Shown here piece after piece: positions 31,238 through 38,402 of a DNA stretch of 46,128 nucleotides. Source of the stretch: Desulfotignum sp. (lineage in GTDB: Bacteria > Desulfobacterota > Desulfobacteria > Desulfobacterales > Desulfobacteraceae); the NCBI GenBank assembly GCA_011389575.1, contig JAABUB010000022.1, forward strand, positions 1 through 46,128, written 5' to 3'. The notes under the pieces are model-generated. The model was not told the origin of the DNA. It saw nothing but the letters and a program-made list of their open reading frames with translations, and did not search any database. Positions within the stretch are counted from its first letter, which is position 1. Each line of letters starts with the position of its first letter. Position numbers and translations under genes: made by a program.

Positions 31238-31287
31238 ATGCCATTACAAATCATAATAGGGAATATATGAATTTTCCAGGAGGAATT

Positions 31288-32928
31288 ATGAACGTTTCCA
31301 AAACCAGATTGTTGTGCACCTTGCTTGGATGGTTGCTGCTGTTTATACCACTGGTCGTGCACGCTACCAAAGGAGAATCAGAACAGTCTTACAAGACCTA
31401 CGGGGCGGCCGAGGCCAAAAAAGTGGTGCAGCAGCCGGAACGATGGATCACGGCTGACCATTCCCGGCACGACGTATTGAAAGAGACCTTCACCTCAGGT
31501 CCGGAAGTTACCGAAGCATGCTTGTCATGCCACAACGAAGCCGGGCGTCAGCTTCACCAGGTAATCCACTGGACATGGCTGTGCCCGGCGGACCCGGAAA
31601 ACAAAATGGGCAAAGCCGGACTCACCCTGAACAATTTCTGAGTGAACATCCAGGGCAACGAGGCTCGTTGCACATCATGCCATGCAGGATACGGCTGGAA
31701 AGACGACACATTTGATTTTTCTTCGGAACGTAACATAGACTGCCTGGTATGTCACGATCAGACCGGCACGTACGAAAAATTTCCCACAGGCGCGGGACAC
31801 CCTGTCTCAGAGCCGAAAAAATTCATGGGAAAGACCTATAAGCCGCCTGACTGGAACAAGGTGGCCCAGAGCGTGGGACGGCCCACCCGGGATAACTGCG
31901 GCACCTGCCACTTCTACGGGGGCGGCGGCGACGGTGTCAAGCACGGGGACCTCGATTCTTCGCTTCTGTCACCTGATGAACAGCTCGATGTCCACATGGA
32001 TGCCGAAGGTCCGGATTTTACCTGCATACGGTGCCACACCACAAAGGCCCACAAGATCGCAGGGCGCTGTTACAAGAAGCCGGCGGCCAAAGAGTTAAAG
32101 AGTCTGATAGAAGACGATCTCATCGAACGTATCACCTGTGTGTCCTGCCACACGGATAAACCCCACAAACCCGGGGACAAGGCCAACGACCACACAGACA
32201 AAGTCGCCTGCCAGTCCTGCCATATTCCGGCTTATGCCCGTCAGCTTCCCACCAAGATGTGGTGGGACTGGTCCGAGGCCGGACGTATGAAAGACGGCAA
32301 ACCTTACGCCGAGCACGGACCTTTCGGCAAACATTCCTATCACACCAAAAAGGGCGAGTTTGTCTGGGCCAAGAATGTGGTTCCCGAATACTTCTGGTTC
32401 AACGGCGGCCTGGAATACACCCTTCTCACGGATAAAATCGACCCCGAAAAACCGGTAAAACTCAACCGGGTCATGGGCAGCCGGGACGACTCCCGGTCCA
32501 GAATATACCCGTTCAAGGTCCATAAGGGCAAGCAACCCTATGACAGCAAACGCAATACCATGGCGGCGCTGCATCTGTTCAGCCCAAAGGAGGAAACAGC
32601 CTACTGGGGATCGTACGACTGGCAGAAGGCCATCACCGCGGGTATGGAATATGTCGGCCTGGAGTACGGCGGCGAGTTCGGGTTCGTGGAAACCGTATAT
32701 CATTTTCCCATTACCCATATGGTCGCCCCCAAAGAAAACCGGATCAGCTGTGAGGAATGTCACAACCGGGAGGGCCGCCTGGCCAATCTGGCGGGATTTT
32801 ATATGCCCGGCCGGGATCACCACGAAGGACTGGATATGGTCGGGTGGATCGGTGTGGTTCTGAGTCTGATAGCAGTAATCCTTCACGGTGTCTTTCGAAA
32901 GATTGCCGGTAAGAAAACACAAAGGTGA
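31288..32928 (+). CDS. Octaheme tetrathionate reductase-family cytochrome c with selenocysteine
   Basis: 546 residues if the in-frame TGA at 31639-31641 is read as Sec118. AGGAGG lies four bases before ATG 31288; a signal peptide (LLCTLLGWLLLFIPLVVHA) sends it to the periplasm. Eight CxxCH haem sites are seen: CLSCH, CTSCH, CLVCH, CGTCH, CIRCH, CVSCH, CQSCH, CEECH. A C-terminal helix (WIGVVLSLIAVILHGVF) anchors it. The TGA falls in TLNNF-Sec-VNIQGNE, where this family has NNFC; that cysteine lies, as I recall from the Shewanella structure, near the Lys-ligated active-site haem. A SECIS-like hairpin follows. The family reduces tetrathionate, nitrite or hydroxylamine in vitro; the physiological substrate here is unknown. 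A nonsense mutation is the alternative. Confidence 0.87.
31655..31671 (+). promoter_or_regulatory. Bacterial SECIS-like hairpin
   Basis: GCAACGA (31655-31661) pairs perfectly with TCGTTGC (31665-31671) around the loop GGC. The loop begins 20 bases after the TGA at 31639-31641, within the usual 16-37 base range, and its first bases are GG, as SelB requires a guanosine there. The hairpin lies inside the coding sequence for GNEARC. Confidence 0.8.
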
Positions 32929-32936
32929 AATATATT

Positions 32937-33602
32937 ATGAATGCAAAGAATATCATCTATCTTTATCCCCGTTTTGAGCGGTTTTGGCACTGGGCCCAGA
33001 CCCTGCTCATTTTGGCGCTGCTCGTCACCGGCTTTGAAATCCATGGAACATATGCACTTCTGGGATTTGAAACCGCGTTCACGGTCCATAATTTCTGTGC
33101 CTGGGCCTGGCTGATTCTTTACATCTTTATCGTGTTCTGGATGGTGACCACCGGCGAATGGCGGCATTACATACCCACATTCCGGAAATTGTACGATGTG
33201 AGCTGTTACTACGCATACGGCATGTTCAGAGGAGAACTCCATCCCGTGCCCAAAAGCGTCCGGATAAAACACAACCCGCTCCAGCGTCTCACCTATCTGG
33301 GGATCGTCTCGGCCCTGGTTCCCTTTCAGATGATCACGGGCTTTTTTTATTACTACTACAATTCCTGGCCCCAGCTCGGACTTAACTGGACCCTGGGCAC
33401 AATGGGTTTTTTACACATGGCCGGCGCTTTTGCTTTTCTGATATTCCTGGTGGTCCATCTGTACATGATCACCACGGGCCCCACAGTCATGGCGCACACC
33501 CGGGCCATGTTCACGGGCTGGGAAGAAGTGGAAGACGTGCAGGCCTGTGAATGGGAAGACAAAACGCAAAAAAAAGAAACAGGTGCGGCCCTGAAAGCTT
33601 GA
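32937..33602 (+). CDS. Membrane cytochrome b561-type subunit
   Basis: 221 residues (the frame can also start at GTG 32925, overlapping the upstream stop). Four membrane helices carry histidines fit for haem b: FERFWHWAQTLLILALLVTG, VHNFCAWAWLILYIFIVFW, LTYLGIVSALVPFQMITGFF, and FLHMAGAFAFLIFLVVHLYM. It lies directly behind the octaheme cytochrome, and would pass electrons from the quinone pool to it across the membrane. Such b-type partners are common next to multihaem reductases. Confidence 0.87.
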   Translation: MNAKNIIYLYPRFERFWHWAQTLLILALLVTGFEIHGTYALLGFETAFTVHNFCAWAWLILYIFIVFWMVTTGEWRHYIPTFRKLYDVSCYYAYGMFRGELHPVPKSVRIKHNPLQRLTYLGIVSALVPFQMITGFFYYYYNSWPQLGLNWTLGTMGFLHMAGAFAFLIFLVVHLYMITTGPTVMAHTRAMFTGWEEVEDVQACEWEDKTQKKETGAALKA

Positions 33603-33768: not shown

Positions 33769-34479
33769 TTATTTGTACAATGCCGCCAGCCTGCCTGCCG
33801 GGACCCCGATATGGTACAACAGCCGGAGCAGCCAGTTGCGAAGGGTGCAGATTGCGATGCCCTCTTTTTTCCACCGCCGGGAGGATGTAACCGATTTTTG
33901 TTTCAGGATATGGATGCGGCTGCCTTGCTTTCTGATCCGGGTCATCAGTTCCAGGTCCTCCATGATGGGAATATCCCTGAATCCGCCCACCCGCTCAAAA
34001 TAGTCTTTTCTGAGAAAAATACTCTGGTCGCCGTAAGGGACCCGGGTCATCCGGGACCTGAGATTGGCAAAACATTCAATGATCTTCAAAGGAATCCGGT
34101 CATCGTCGATCCCTAAGGAAAACGCCCCGCCAACCAGGTCTTTATCCCCGGAAAGCAGGTTTGTTATCAATTCCGGTGCATCCCCGGGCAACAGGGTATC
34201 GGCATGCAGAAACAGGAGAATCTCTCCTCTGGCCATGGCAGCACCCCGGTTCATCTGCCTGGCCCGCCCCCTGCCGGAATGGATCTTTTTGACCCGGGGC
34301 AGCGCAACCGCTGCAAGGGTGTCGCCTTCAGGGCTGCCGTCCACCACAATGATTTCATGGGCCGGTGCGGGAAAAACCGTCTGTACGTTTTCAAGAAACG
34401 CGTTGATGGTTTTTGCTTCCCGGAAAACCGGCACTATGACGGAAATGTTCATATCACGGGCTGACTTTTCAGGTTTCAT
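33769..34479 (-). CDS. Family 2 glycosyltransferase, TIGR04283 (selenodomain-associated transferase 2)
   Basis: 236 residues (start possibly at 34452, MNISVIVPV). A GT-A fold: ISVIVPVFREAKTINAFLEN, IIVVDGSPEGDT, LFLHADTLLPGDA (the DxD-like HADT) and GGAFSLGID, YGDQSIFLRK. The family is named rSAM/selenodomain-associated transferase 2, more recently also arsenosugar biosynthesis glycosyltransferase. It overlaps the next upstream gene (transferase 1) by 11 bases; the two nearly always occur together. The gap 33603-33768 shows no supported gene. Confidence 0.88.
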   Translation of the reverse strand: MKPEKSARDMNISVIVPVFREAKTINAFLENVQTVFPAPAHEIIVVDGSPEGDTLAAVALPRVKKIHSGRGRARQMNRGAAMARGEILLFLHADTLLPGDAPELITNLLSGDKDLVGGAFSLGIDDDRIPLKIIECFANLRSRMTRVPYGDQSIFLRKDYFERVGGFRDIPIMEDLELMTRIRKQGSRIHILKQKSVTSSRRWKKEGIAICTLRNWLLRLLYHIGVPAGRLAALYK

Positions 34480-35113
34480 CTGTTCGGTGGCTGGAGAACA
34501 GACCGGTTTCGGCTGAAACAGCGTTCAAATCCTGCAGGGTATCGATGTCCCTCATGGCTGTCAGCAAACAGGGTTTGCGCTGGCCTTCCGCCAATTTTTT
34601 CAGGGTGATGTTCAGCACATCCGGCGTGCTCCAGGGTATATCATCAAACATTTCAGGAAAAAAATTATCCTGTGTCATGGCCACCAGGTAATACCCTCCG
34701 TCCAGGGCAGGTCCGATCACCACATCACACGCCCCGGTCCTTTGTGCGGCCTCTCCAATGGTAGCGCCCGACAAGTGGGGCAGGTCACTGCCGGTCAGAA
34801 TGACCCTGTCAAACCCAAGGGCAAATCCCTGTTCAAATGCATCCCGCATTTTATGACCCAGGTCCGGGCCTTTTTGAACCATAAAATCAAACCCGCTGCC
34901 GAGCCATTCCCGATAATCGGAAACCGGATGATCCGGATGACAGCTGATCACCGTGTCAAAGCCTGTTGACCGGCAGGTTGCCAGCAGGGTCCGGACAAAT
35001 CCGCGATAGAGATCCAAGGCTTTATTCATACCGATCTGACTGCCGAGCCGGGTTTTGACCGACCCGGCCTGCGGATATTTTACCATAACGATAATGGCGG
35101 TCCGGTTATGCAT
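34469..35113 (-). CDS. TIGR04282 family transferase (selenodomain-associated transferase 1)
   Basis: 214 residues from ATG 35113 (GGAAGG upstream; the frame is open to 35236 without a ribosome site). Nucleotidyltransferase/GT-A type: AIIVMVKYPQAGSVKTRLG, FDRVILTGSDLPHLSGATI, VVIGPALDGGYYLVAM, MRDIDTLQDLNAV. Partner of the overlapping TIGR04283 gene. Their close neighbours in many genomes include selenium or arsenic genes; here they sit between a Sec cytochrome and the YedE cluster. Confidence 0.87.
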   Translation of the reverse strand: MHNRTAIIVMVKYPQAGSVKTRLGSQIGMNKALDLYRGFVRTLLATCRSTGFDTVISCHPDHPVSDYREWLGSGFDFMVQKGPDLGHKMRDAFEQGFALGFDRVILTGSDLPHLSGATIGEAAQRTGACDVVIGPALDGGYYLVAMTQDNFFPEMFDDIPWSTPDVLNITLKKLAEGQRKPCLLTAMRDIDTLQDLNAVSAETGLFSSHRTDET

Positions 35114-35210
35114 GTGCCTTCCGTCAAAAAAGCAATTTCCAATTGTCCGAAAACCGCTCAAGAGTAACACACACCCTGTTGTTTGAACAGGAAATAACTC
35201 AGGCGAATTT

Positions 35211-35618
35211 TTAAGAAGTGCCGGCCCAATTTTCAACTTTTAATGATTGTATTCGCTTAAACTCTTTTTCATTATTTGTAACCAGTATTAATCCTCTGCT
35301 AATTGCATGAGCAGCTATCAACATGTCAAGAGGGCCAATAATATGGCCTTGTTTTTCAAGCATAGAACGAATTTCTCCATAATGTTTTGCTGCCATTTGA
35401 TCATAGGAAAGGATTTCAAAAGGTGTAAGGAATTCTTCTAAACGTGTTAAATTTTGTTTCTTGAAATTACTTTTGGAAACACCATATTGAAGCTCAGAAA
35501 CTGTAATCGAAGAGATTGCGATCATTCCCACTTCAATCTCTTTAAATTTGCCGATTACATCTGGTGGTCGCTTATTCATTATGTAAATACAAATATTTGT
35601 ATCAATCAAAAATTTCAT
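35211..35618 (-). CDS. vapC: VapC-type PIN toxin
   Basis: 135 residues: LIDTNICIYIMNKRP, ITVSELQYGVSKS, GPLDMLIAAHAISRGLILVT and NNEKEF form the conserved acidic RNase site; the family typically cuts initiator tRNA or rRNA. It overlaps vapB by 17 bases. AT-rich codon use compared with flanking genes suggests transfer. Confidence 0.92.
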   Translation of the reverse strand: MKFLIDTNICIYIMNKRPPDVIGKFKEIEVGMIAISSITVSELQYGVSKSNFKKQNLTRLEEFLTPFEILSYDQMAAKHYGEIRSMLEKQGHIIGPLDMLIAAHAISRGLILVTNNEKEFKRIQSLKVENWAGTS

Positions 35619-36499: not shown

Positions 36500-37582
36500 A
36501 TGATAAAAAATGTGCTGGCTACCCGCACGGGTATCATTGTGGTGGGGGCGGTAATCGGCATTTTGGCCCCGTTGCTTCAGAAACTGGGCAACCCCGGCAA
36601 CATGGGCATCTGCGTGGCCTGTTTTGAAAGGGATATCTCCGGTGCTTTTGGATTTCACCGGGCTGCGGTGGTACAGTATCTGCGGCCTGAGATCATCGGA
36701 TTTGTGTTGGGCTCACTGGCGGCGGCCCTTGCGTTCAAGGATTTTCGTCCCAGAACCGGATCTGCCCCGTTTGTGAGATTCGTGCTGGGGGTGTTTGCCA
36801 TGATCGGCGCCCTGGTGTTTCTGGGGTGTCCTTGGCGGACCCTGCTCCGGCTGGCCGGGGGGGATCTGAATGCGGTGCTGGGACTGGCCGGTCTGATTTT
36901 CGGTATCTGGCTGGGCACCCTGTTTCTGAAAAACGGTTACAACCTGGGCCGGACCCAGAAAACCCATGCAGCAGCCGGACTGCTCATGCCCGTGGTGATG
37001 GCGGGATTTCTGATGTTAATGCTGATATTTCCGCAAATAGAGGGAGTGCCCAAAAACGATATTCTGTTTTACAGTATCAAAGGACCGGGTGCCATGCACG
37101 CGCCGCTGCTCATCTCCATTGGTGCGGGCCTGTTGATCGGATTTCTGGCCCAGCGCAGCCGATTCTGCACCATGGGGGCGTTCAGGGATTTTGTACTTTT
37201 CCGTCAGACACACCTGCTTACCGGTGTCATCACCTTGCTGGTGGTGGCAGGCATCGCCAATCTCGTGTTTGGTCAGTTTACCGTGGGGTTTGAAAATCAG
37301 CCGGTGGCCCACACCCAGCATCTGTGGAACTTTGCCGGCATGGCCCTTGCCGGTCTTGCATTTGCCCTGGCAGGGGGATGCCCGGGCCGGCAGCTGTTCA
37401 TGGCAGGTGAGGGAGATGGGGATGCTGCCATATTTGTATTCGGTATGATTGTCGGGGCAGGCTTTGCCCACAATTTCGGCCTGGCCAGCTCGCCTGCCGG
37501 GGTGGGACCCCATGGGATCGCCGCGGTAATTATCGGATTTGCCGTATGTCTGGCCATTGGCTTTACAATGCGCAAAAAATAA
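36500..37582 (+). CDS. yedE: YedE-family selenium metabolism membrane protein
   Basis: 360 residues, about ten helices. The family (TIGR04112-like, YeeE/YedE) occurs with Sec-decoding or other selenium traits and is thought to import selenium or sulfur species. Conserved cysteine spots are present: GNPGNMGICVACFERDISGA, LGCPWRTLLRLAGGDLNAV, QRSRFCTMGAFRDF, and GGCPGRQLFMAGEGDGDA. It heads a four-gene cluster with a TusA-like carrier 16 bases downstream. Its presence here supports the selenoprotein call for the octaheme cytochrome. Confidence 0.92.
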   Translation: MIKNVLATRTGIIVVGAVIGILAPLLQKLGNPGNMGICVACFERDISGAFGFHRAAVVQYLRPEIIGFVLGSLAAALAFKDFRPRTGSAPFVRFVLGVFAMIGALVFLGCPWRTLLRLAGGDLNAVLGLAGLIFGIWLGTLFLKNGYNLGRTQKTHAAAGLLMPVVMAGFLMLMLIFPQIEGVPKNDILFYSIKGPGAMHAPLLISIGAGLLIGFLAQRSRFCTMGAFRDFVLFRQTHLLTGVITLLVVAGIANLVFGQFTVGFENQPVAHTQHLWNFAGMALAGLAFALAGGCPGRQLFMAGEGDGDAAIFVFGMIVGAGFAHNFGLASSPAGVGPHGIAAVIIGFAVCLAIGFTMRKK

Positions 37583-37598
37583 ACAAGGAGATGTGATC

Positions 37599-37820
37599 AT
37601 GACAAAAACCATTGATGCCAGGGGTCTGTCCTGTCCCCAGCCCGTGCTCATGTTCCTGGAGGCGGTCAAATCACCTGAAGATACACAGTTCGAGGTGCTG
37701 GTGGACACGGAGGCTTCCAGGGAAAATGTATCCCGGGCCGCTGAAAGCCGGAACTGCCGGGTGACGGATATCCAGGAGACAGGGGATGAATATCATCTGA
37801 CCATTGTCAGAAAAACGTAA
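37599..37820 (+). CDS. TusA/YedF-like sulfur or selenium carrier
   Basis: 73 residues. The CPxP motif with the active cysteine is in TIDARGLSCPQPVLMFLEAV. TusA-family proteins carry persulfide; next to YedE they are proposed to carry selenium. AAGGAG before the ATG. It corresponds to the N-terminal half of YedF, whose second half (DUF3343-like) is a separate gene just downstream. Confidence 0.9.
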   Translation: MTKTIDARGLSCPQPVLMFLEAVKSPEDTQFEVLVDTEASRENVSRAAESRNCRVTDIQETGDEYHLTIVRKT

Positions 37821-37841
37821 CATAATCCAAGGTGGGCCGGT

Positions 37842-38402
37842 TTGTTCAATTTTTTAAAAAAACCACTTGCCAGGCAGGATGCAGGGCGAAACAAGGACAG
37901 GTTACAGTCGGATCACGGTATTCTGGTGTTTGAAAATACCAGTGAGGTGATCCAGGCGGAAAGACTGCTCAAAAAAAGCGGCTGGGATGTGCGGGTCATG
38001 GGCCCGCCCCCGGAGATCCAGACCGGGTGCGACCTGGTGATCCTGTTTCCCCTGATCGAACAACTGGAGATTGTCCGGCTGCTCGCATCCCGGTCCAATG
38101 CACCGCTCCAGGTGGTGCCGGTGACCGATCCGCTGCTGGAACCGGTGAGCCTGTTCCAGGTAAAGGATTTTGGCGATTATCTCATGGTCCGGGCCGCCAA
38201 CATGAAAATCACCGTTGACAAACAGACCCGGATCATCGTCAATGTGTCCGGCGGCGGATGTCCGGATGTACCCTGGCTGGCGGGTGAAATGGTGGGAAAA
38301 CCACTGGCCGAGGCACCGGATCCCCTGGAAATCGGCCATACCCTTTGCGGATATGCTTTAGGGTTGGCGTACAAGGAGATGAAAAACCAATGCTTGCCAT
38401 AG
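37842..38402 (+). CDS. DUF3343 domain protein, putative Se/S carrier
   Basis: 186 residues from a TTG start (AAGGTGG seven bases upstream). Residues 25-100 (HGILVFENTSEVIQAERLLK, VRVMGPPPEIQTGCDLVI) match DUF3343, a small domain linked to selenium/sulfur handling. An added C-terminal part has cysteines in VSGGGCPDVPWLA and IGHTLCGYALG, so this is a longer, two-part version. It overlaps the next gene by 13 bases. Confidence 0.78.
   Translation: MFNFLKKPLARQDAGRNKDRLQSDHGILVFENTSEVIQAERLLKKSGWDVRVMGPPPEIQTGCDLVILFPLIEQLEIVRLLASRSNAPLQVVPVTDPLLEPVSLFQVKDFGDYLMVRAANMKITVDKQTRIIVNVSGGGCPDVPWLAGEMVGKPLAEAPDPLEIGHTLCGYALGLAYKEMKNQCLP

Follow-up and report, generated by a model that had tools for sequence, protein, structure and literature searches.

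Two open reading frames, 31288-31641 and 31642-32928, lie end to end in the window (the whole 46,128-nucleotide stretch of Desulfotignum sp. DNA analysed here). The question that they raise is whether the TGA at the end of the first is a stop or a codon and, if a codon, for which amino acid. The two frames are what a mechanical ORF listing makes of an octahaem cytochrome gene. Translation places both in a single shared plus-strand frame (31288-32928), and its read-through product has 546 residues, with the TGA as codon 118, 428 sense codons 3' of it and a terminal TGA; a sequence-only reading had already joined the two pieces and counted 428 intact codons after the TGA, and the translation bears out both claims. 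With a probability of about 0.9, 31288-32928 is one frame in which the TGA is a predicted selenocysteine (Sec) codon, and the product is likely a periplasmic, membrane-anchored octahaem reductase of the octahaem tetrathionate reductase (OTR) family. A single selenium-containing protein is likely because the TGA stands at a conserved Cys near the catalytic haem and is followed by a fitting hairpin. The features of the locus are as follows.

31279-31283, plus strand: likely ribosome-binding site GGAGG, 5' of the ATG at 31288 (judged by eye)
31288-32928, plus strand: octahaem cytochrome c gene of the OTR family, 546 residues and a terminal TGA (TIGR04315, 1SP3)
31288-31368, plus strand: likely Sec-type signal peptide, residues 1-27 (translation, by eye)
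31519-31533, plus strand: CxxCH of haem 1, the sole CxxCH 5' of the TGA (motif)
31639-31641, plus strand: in-frame TGA, predicted selenocysteine 118, in the column of Cys64 of 1SP3 (alignment)
31655-31671, plus strand: predicted bSECIS hairpin GCAACGA-GGC-TCGTTGC, 17 bases (published model)
31669-31683, plus strand: CxxCH at residues 128-132 for haem 2, which homology to 1SP3 marks as the catalytic haem (alignment; PMC11024163)
31939-31941, plus strand: Lys218, predicted haem-2 ligand, matched to Lys153 of 1SP3 by its counted position in the alignment
32836-32895, plus strand: likely C-terminal membrane anchor, residues 517-536 (judged by eye)
32925-33602, plus strand: cytochrome b561-type membrane subunit (PF01292, profile match), whose true start may be the ATG at 32937

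The joined protein and its family

The read-through protein matched TIGR04315 with 635.4 bits (cut-off 375) over model positions 1-440 of 440, and the solved OTR structure 1SP3 aligned with it over residues 60-499 (E 5.2e-127). All eight CxxCH sites that had been claimed for the joined octahaem cytochrome were located (residues 78, 128, 152, 204, 246, 284, 308 and 488), one before the TGA and seven after. The context NNF-TGA-V is aligned with NNFC of 1SP3, and by counting along the chain the TGA column is Cys64, ten residues N-terminal of the haem-2 CxxCH; the earlier proposal that the TGA of NNF-x-V occupies a conserved NNFC Cys is thus upheld by 1SP3, as well as by the 118 homologous ORFs with Cys in this column that are described below. 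Cys64 is reportedly chemically modified in 1SP3, although among the literature matches listed for OTR no treatment of this residue was met; Lys153 of the same structure is taken here to be the ligand of haem 2. The window protein and the Shewanella oneidensis OTR (1SP3, also TIGR04315) have in common the eight CxxCH, the Lys and the NNFx motif, but the S. oneidensis protein carries Cys64 where the window protein has the TGA and predicted Sec, and the window protein further differs in its likely C-terminal helix (by eye) and its adjoining cytochrome b561 gene.

Haem 2 of OTR is described as Lys-ligated and involved in catalysis, and the function of OTR has been termed cryptic (both PMC11024163), while characterised members reduce tetrathionate, nitrite and hydroxylamine (PMC6449678, PMC11024163). 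The main job of a Sec-containing enzyme may accordingly be other than tetrathionate reduction, whether it acts on nitrite, hydroxylamine or another compound or serves mainly as an electron relay, and this alternative is a serious contender that falls somewhat short of even odds. It draws on the range of those characterised substrates and on the generic nature of the neighbouring cytochrome b561, the product of which matched a thiosulfate reductase cytochrome b model below that model's cut-off, whereas the conservation of Lys218 and the haem-2 CxxCH in all of the 188 homologues that carry Cys or TGA argues against a mere relay.

The TGA column, the hairpin and the selenocysteine genes

Homologues were gathered by searching 86 family genomes with the window protein (matches in 67) and 395 phylum genomes with TIGR04315 (93 matching at E 1e-30), the window's own genome being counted in both sets, and 54 named loci from one genome scan were added. 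Apart from a 57-residue stretch in G012, every TGA-flagged match was fetched, along with part of the non-TGA matches. Among the 195 homologous ORFs obtained, duplicates included, the column held TGA in 70, Cys in 118 and Ala in 1, with 6 unaligned, counts that are neither a random draw nor prevalences because TGA-flagged matches were preferred in fetching. The alignment with OTR homologues and the search for relatives with the same TGA, both proposed earlier as checks, therefore each came out in favour of a Cys/TGA column, and TGA lies there far beyond chance, since 70 of the 189 ORFs with a residue at this position have it. The single Ala belongs to a distant homologue (L157).

Duplicate loci are present among the 70 (L098=L001 and L169=L126 by contig, and probably L161/L097 and L208/L065), and hairpins were therefore counted on distinct stretches. 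One locus with an aligned part of less than 250 residues (L075) was left out, as were the six unaligned rows, which include two more distant octahaem-like genes (L138, L139) whose TGA sits elsewhere; they have a common TGA before a conserved stretch, YU-APPNTVAGHNWIGIL, which could be another Sec site or lie 5' of the true start. A broken gene (L076), outside the 70, has a further TGA with a hairpin of class A as defined below. Other TGAs in the homologous ORFs precede the likely start or coincide with the likely end, with two exceptions: a Cys form (L213) with a TGA just beyond the aligned part, at about residue 493, which is possibly a frameshift, and a fused OTR copy (L077, in G070) whose extra TGAs in the read frame are consistent with a frameshift or an assembly error.

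Counted by hand, the TGA form occurs in 30 of the 86 family genomes (including G070, which has the frameshifted copy) and in 30 of the 395 sampled phylum genomes. Additionally, it was found in eight of the 54 named loci, assigned to Desulfobacteraceae (3), Desulfobacterales, Deltaproteobacteria (2), Pseudodesulfovibrio and Caldimicrobium. One carrier of the TGA form is the strain Pseudodesulfovibrio pelocollis SB368 (L162). Of the 120 best among 7625 protein-database relatives, 114 extend across the site, every one with Cys; the other six are shorter, and four of these begin at the residue after the TGA position. These four, known from proteins alone, are the trace that would be expected of gene callers cutting the Sec form. 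The window genome also encodes a second OTR (L002, G000:C28:30696-32246) with Cys at the site and 48% identity, a possible selenium-independent partner.

The part of the gene after the TGA diverges under constraint, with dN of about 0.25 and dS of 1.4-2.7 against L160 and L097/L161, and dN of 0.32 with saturated dS against L124. dN is well below dS in four of four comparisons, of which those with L097 and L161, probably the same gene, gave identical values, and non-synonymous divergence is low on both sides of the TGA.

The published bSECIS model specifies a stem of 4-16 bp, a loop of 3-9 nt with G in the first two loop positions, a position 16-37 nt after the UGA and an MFE <= -7.5 kcal/mol (PMC13188914). 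The window hairpin, with a 7 bp stem, the loop GGC (31662-31664) and 20 bases from TGA to loop, falls within this model but just at its limit, because the stem alone gives -7.5 kcal/mol, exactly the threshold; the 3' arm runs into the haem-2 CxxCH and overlaps its first codon. In perfect-stem form, the published model accepted 57 of 57 distinct TGA stretches vs. 2 of 111 Cys stretches. All seven pairs were present in 57/57 vs. 1/111, a count that is partly circular because the TGA stretches had themselves served to define the pairing classes, a circularity from which the published model is free. As background, 68 of the 1728 TGA triplets in the window pass the model, and among the 66 ORF-ending TGAs two pass, one of them the TGA at 31639-31641; the gene's own terminal TGA failed. 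Random synonymous recodings passed in 3.5% of 200 cases for the window stretch and in 15.4% (1754/11400) over all TGA stretches, the latter because the protein sequence itself favours pairing.

The TGA stretches fall into class A (GCAACGA-GGC-TCGTTGC; 26 distinct stretches including that of the window) and class B (CTGGTGC-AGGT-GCACCAG; 31 distinct stretches). In class A, 16 of 17 bases are invariant in the 26 stretches, across clades, and the surrounding third positions vary; since no pair varies, this class has no covariation support. In class B, a C-G to U-A double change occurs in 4 of 31 sequences, at one of the seven pairs; the number of double-change cells was matched by 0 of 500 shuffles and the number of such pairs by 216 of 500. 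One Cys form (L145) could still form the seven class A pairs, but it is not one of the two Cys stretches accepted by the published model. As a positive control, an in-frame TGA in selD of the window genome precedes a six-pair stem with a three-base loop at 20-base spacing (L018, 1531-1562). The class B hairpin (CUGGUGC-AGGU-GCACCAG) resembles what we take to be the upper stem and loop of the Escherichia coli fdhF SECIS, from which the window hairpin, being of class A, differs in sequence and in placing its loop 20 rather than 24 bases from the UGA. Rfam at gathering thresholds gave no match in the window, a result that says little against the hairpin because, to our knowledge, Rfam holds no general bacterial SECIS family.

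A genome search for selA, selB, selC and selD, also proposed earlier, found all four over their cut-offs in the window genome: selA (599 bits, cut-off 268), selB (344, cut-off 242), selD (368, cut-off 125) and a tRNA-Sec (76.9, cut-off 47) with anticodon TCA, corresponding to tRNA-Sec(UCA); within the window itself ARAGORN found no tRNA. Two of the refuting conditions set in the sequence-only reading, a genome lacking selB/selC and homologues without Cys in the column, were thus not borne out. selA was matched in 29 of the 30 family genomes with the TGA form (missing in G084) and in 28 of the 30 phylum genomes with it (missing in G385 and G479), the three genomes without a match being 81-90% complete. 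The presence of selA was tried as a discriminator and set aside as weak, since 355 of the 395 phylum genomes have it.

Sec machinery is known to insert Cys at UGA in other organisms, and the UGA might be read here as Cys or another amino acid, for instance through loading of Cys by this machinery under selenium scarcity. Since 118 fetched homologues have Cys, an enzyme with Cys at this place would presumably function, but the presence of the Sec genes together with a SECIS-like hairpin makes this improbable, and TGA is not generally reassigned, because the octahaem cytochrome gene itself ends in TGA. A true stop at the TGA, in a gene that is decaying or has been split in two with a new start at GTG 31642, agrees with the two ORFs of a mechanical listing and with the four database relatives (among the best 120) that begin just after this position, but is hardly credible when 70 fetched ORFs share the TGA at the Cys column, the divergence after it is constrained, 57/57 distinct stretches conform to the SECIS model and a protein made from the second piece only would have neither a signal peptide (by eye) nor haem motif 1. 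Judged from the sequence data, selenocysteine is by far the best reading of TGA 31639-31641, because the Cys/TGA exchange at the column, the SECIS-type hairpin (57/57), the Sec genes and the low dN converge on it; the preference for selenocysteine over random decay, voiced in the sequence-only reading, therefore stands.

Sec/Cys exchange and gene neighbourhood

A quick tree of 179 distinct rows, built after removal of the columns around the TGA, calls for at least 11 Sec/Cys changes, a soft number because several inner nodes are weak (support 11-46). Four Sec groupings were seen, two of class A and two of class B: the window's wider group (class A), intermixed with Cys rows; a 25-row clade (class B); a clade of fused forms (class A), in which one row (L210) has a one-base loop change; and a 7-row clade (class B). 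Three Cys genes of the window's wider group (L022, L025 and L029) keep NEARC, with the Ala that the hairpin encodes, while the stem is broken, which on sequence grounds looks like a change from Sec to Cys. NEARCT was present in 3 of the 114 database Cys forms (from the best 120 of 7625 matches). Two further Cys genes placed near these three (L021, L024) have NEPRC and lend no support to a Sec-to-Cys change.

A cytochrome b561 homologue lies 3' of the unfused TGA form in 35 of 42 loci: in each of the 10 of class A and in 25 of the 32 of class B, where the seven without it make up the 7-row clade. None of the 19 fused TGA loci with room has it next. The pairing is a trait of the enzyme rather than of Sec, because 70 of 106 Cys loci with room have it too. 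In the fused form, examined in one protein (L208), a class III (tetrahaem c3-like) cytochrome part stands N-terminal of the OTR domain, and upstream of the fused TGA loci an Hmc-like operon is indicated by HmcB-like genes in 20 of 23 and HmcC-like genes in 21 of 23. This arrangement is likewise not special to Sec, since HmcB-like and HmcC-like genes occur in 16 and 15, respectively, of the Cys loci, 55 of which have room. Three Cys rows that a motif rule labelled fused lack Hmc-like genes, have the cytochrome b and probably represent unfused forms.

Further downstream, the window contains a YedE-family putative selenium transporter gene (36500-37582; TIGR04112, 497 bits) and a putative Se/S carrier protein gene (37842-38402), 4-6 kb from the selenoprotein gene. 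Neither was found in any of the 179 tree loci at E 1e-5, where the flank was often only 1.5-6 kb; the locus from the window itself, L001, extends no further than 34425, short of these genes. Considered as operon partners, the two (36500-38402) were treated as neighbours only. Two minus-strand glycosyltransferase genes (33769-35236; TIGR04283/TIGR04282, named for arsenosugar biosynthesis) and, beside them, a VapC-type toxin gene (35211-35618) also lie in the window.

Proposed mechanism and significance

In the mechanism proposed, SelB would deliver Sec-tRNA at the 31655-31671 hairpin for insertion of Sec at the UGA by the ribosome, after which the chain would be exported and loaded with eight haems, its C-terminal helix serving as membrane anchor. 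The neighbouring cytochrome b561 would pass electrons from quinol to the octahaem reductase, where Sec118, beside the Lys-ligated haem 2, could take part in the reduction of a small oxidised sulfur or nitrogen compound; Sec at this place may alter the sulfur, selenium or nitrogen-oxide chemistry of the enzyme. A bolder, joint proposal is that Sec and the Lys-ligated haem form a haem-selenium catalytic pair, the selenolate attacking the S-S bond of a polythionate to give a selenosulfide that the haem would then reduce, and that many Sec/Cys switches have left decayed hairpins. Taken as a whole this proposal is speculative and more probably wrong than right; if the switches were indeed many, natural Sec/Cys pairs of one enzyme would therefore exist, including the Hmc-like fused form.

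The gene had been called a probable new selenoprotein; the selenoprotein part of that claim is supported, and the newness is limited, since the table of a 2026 review already lists a tetrathionate reductase family octaheme c-type cytochrome as a selenoprotein (PMC13188914). The entry, WP_331457571.1 (TIGR04315, a single Sec, annotated in GenBank), states no Sec motif; by the table entry alone WP_331457571.1 is likened to the window protein through the same family model and the single Sec. In the available parts of the review, no SECIS, distribution, evolution or operon is given for the TIGR04315 selenoprotein (PMC13188914). The main texts of PMC12013277 and PMC8318568 make no mention of cytochrome, tetrathionate or heme, and the selenoproteins named for Desulfobacterium autotrophicum, in a list that ends "and others", include none of octahaem type (PMC2702500, as far as available). 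Other literature describing a selenocysteine octahaem or tetrathionate reductase was not found among the matches listed, as far as their text was available. The distribution, the hairpin types, the repeated Sec/Cys exchange and the Hmc-like fused form were not found described in the literature searched, to the extent that its text was available.

Another multihaem cytochrome family with an in-frame TGA, ExtKL (NF040886), was absent from the six NCBIfam matches of the window protein at E 0.001; the Geobacter gene GSU2937+GSU2936 is presumably the ExtKL gene. ExtKL is likewise listed as a c-type cytochrome gene with an in-frame TGA (PMC13188914, table), as is reported for GSU2937+GSU2936, which differs in having five CxxCH in its N-terminal part and a C-terminal part without characterised relative (PMC1914089, available part).

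Overall, selenium use in anaerobes is likely undercounted, because ORF finding splits this enzyme and four database relatives look like cut products. The natural Sec and Cys versions, some of them closely related, make the role of the conserved Cys64 directly testable, and Sec in a catalytic haem pocket, if true, would represent unusual chemistry.
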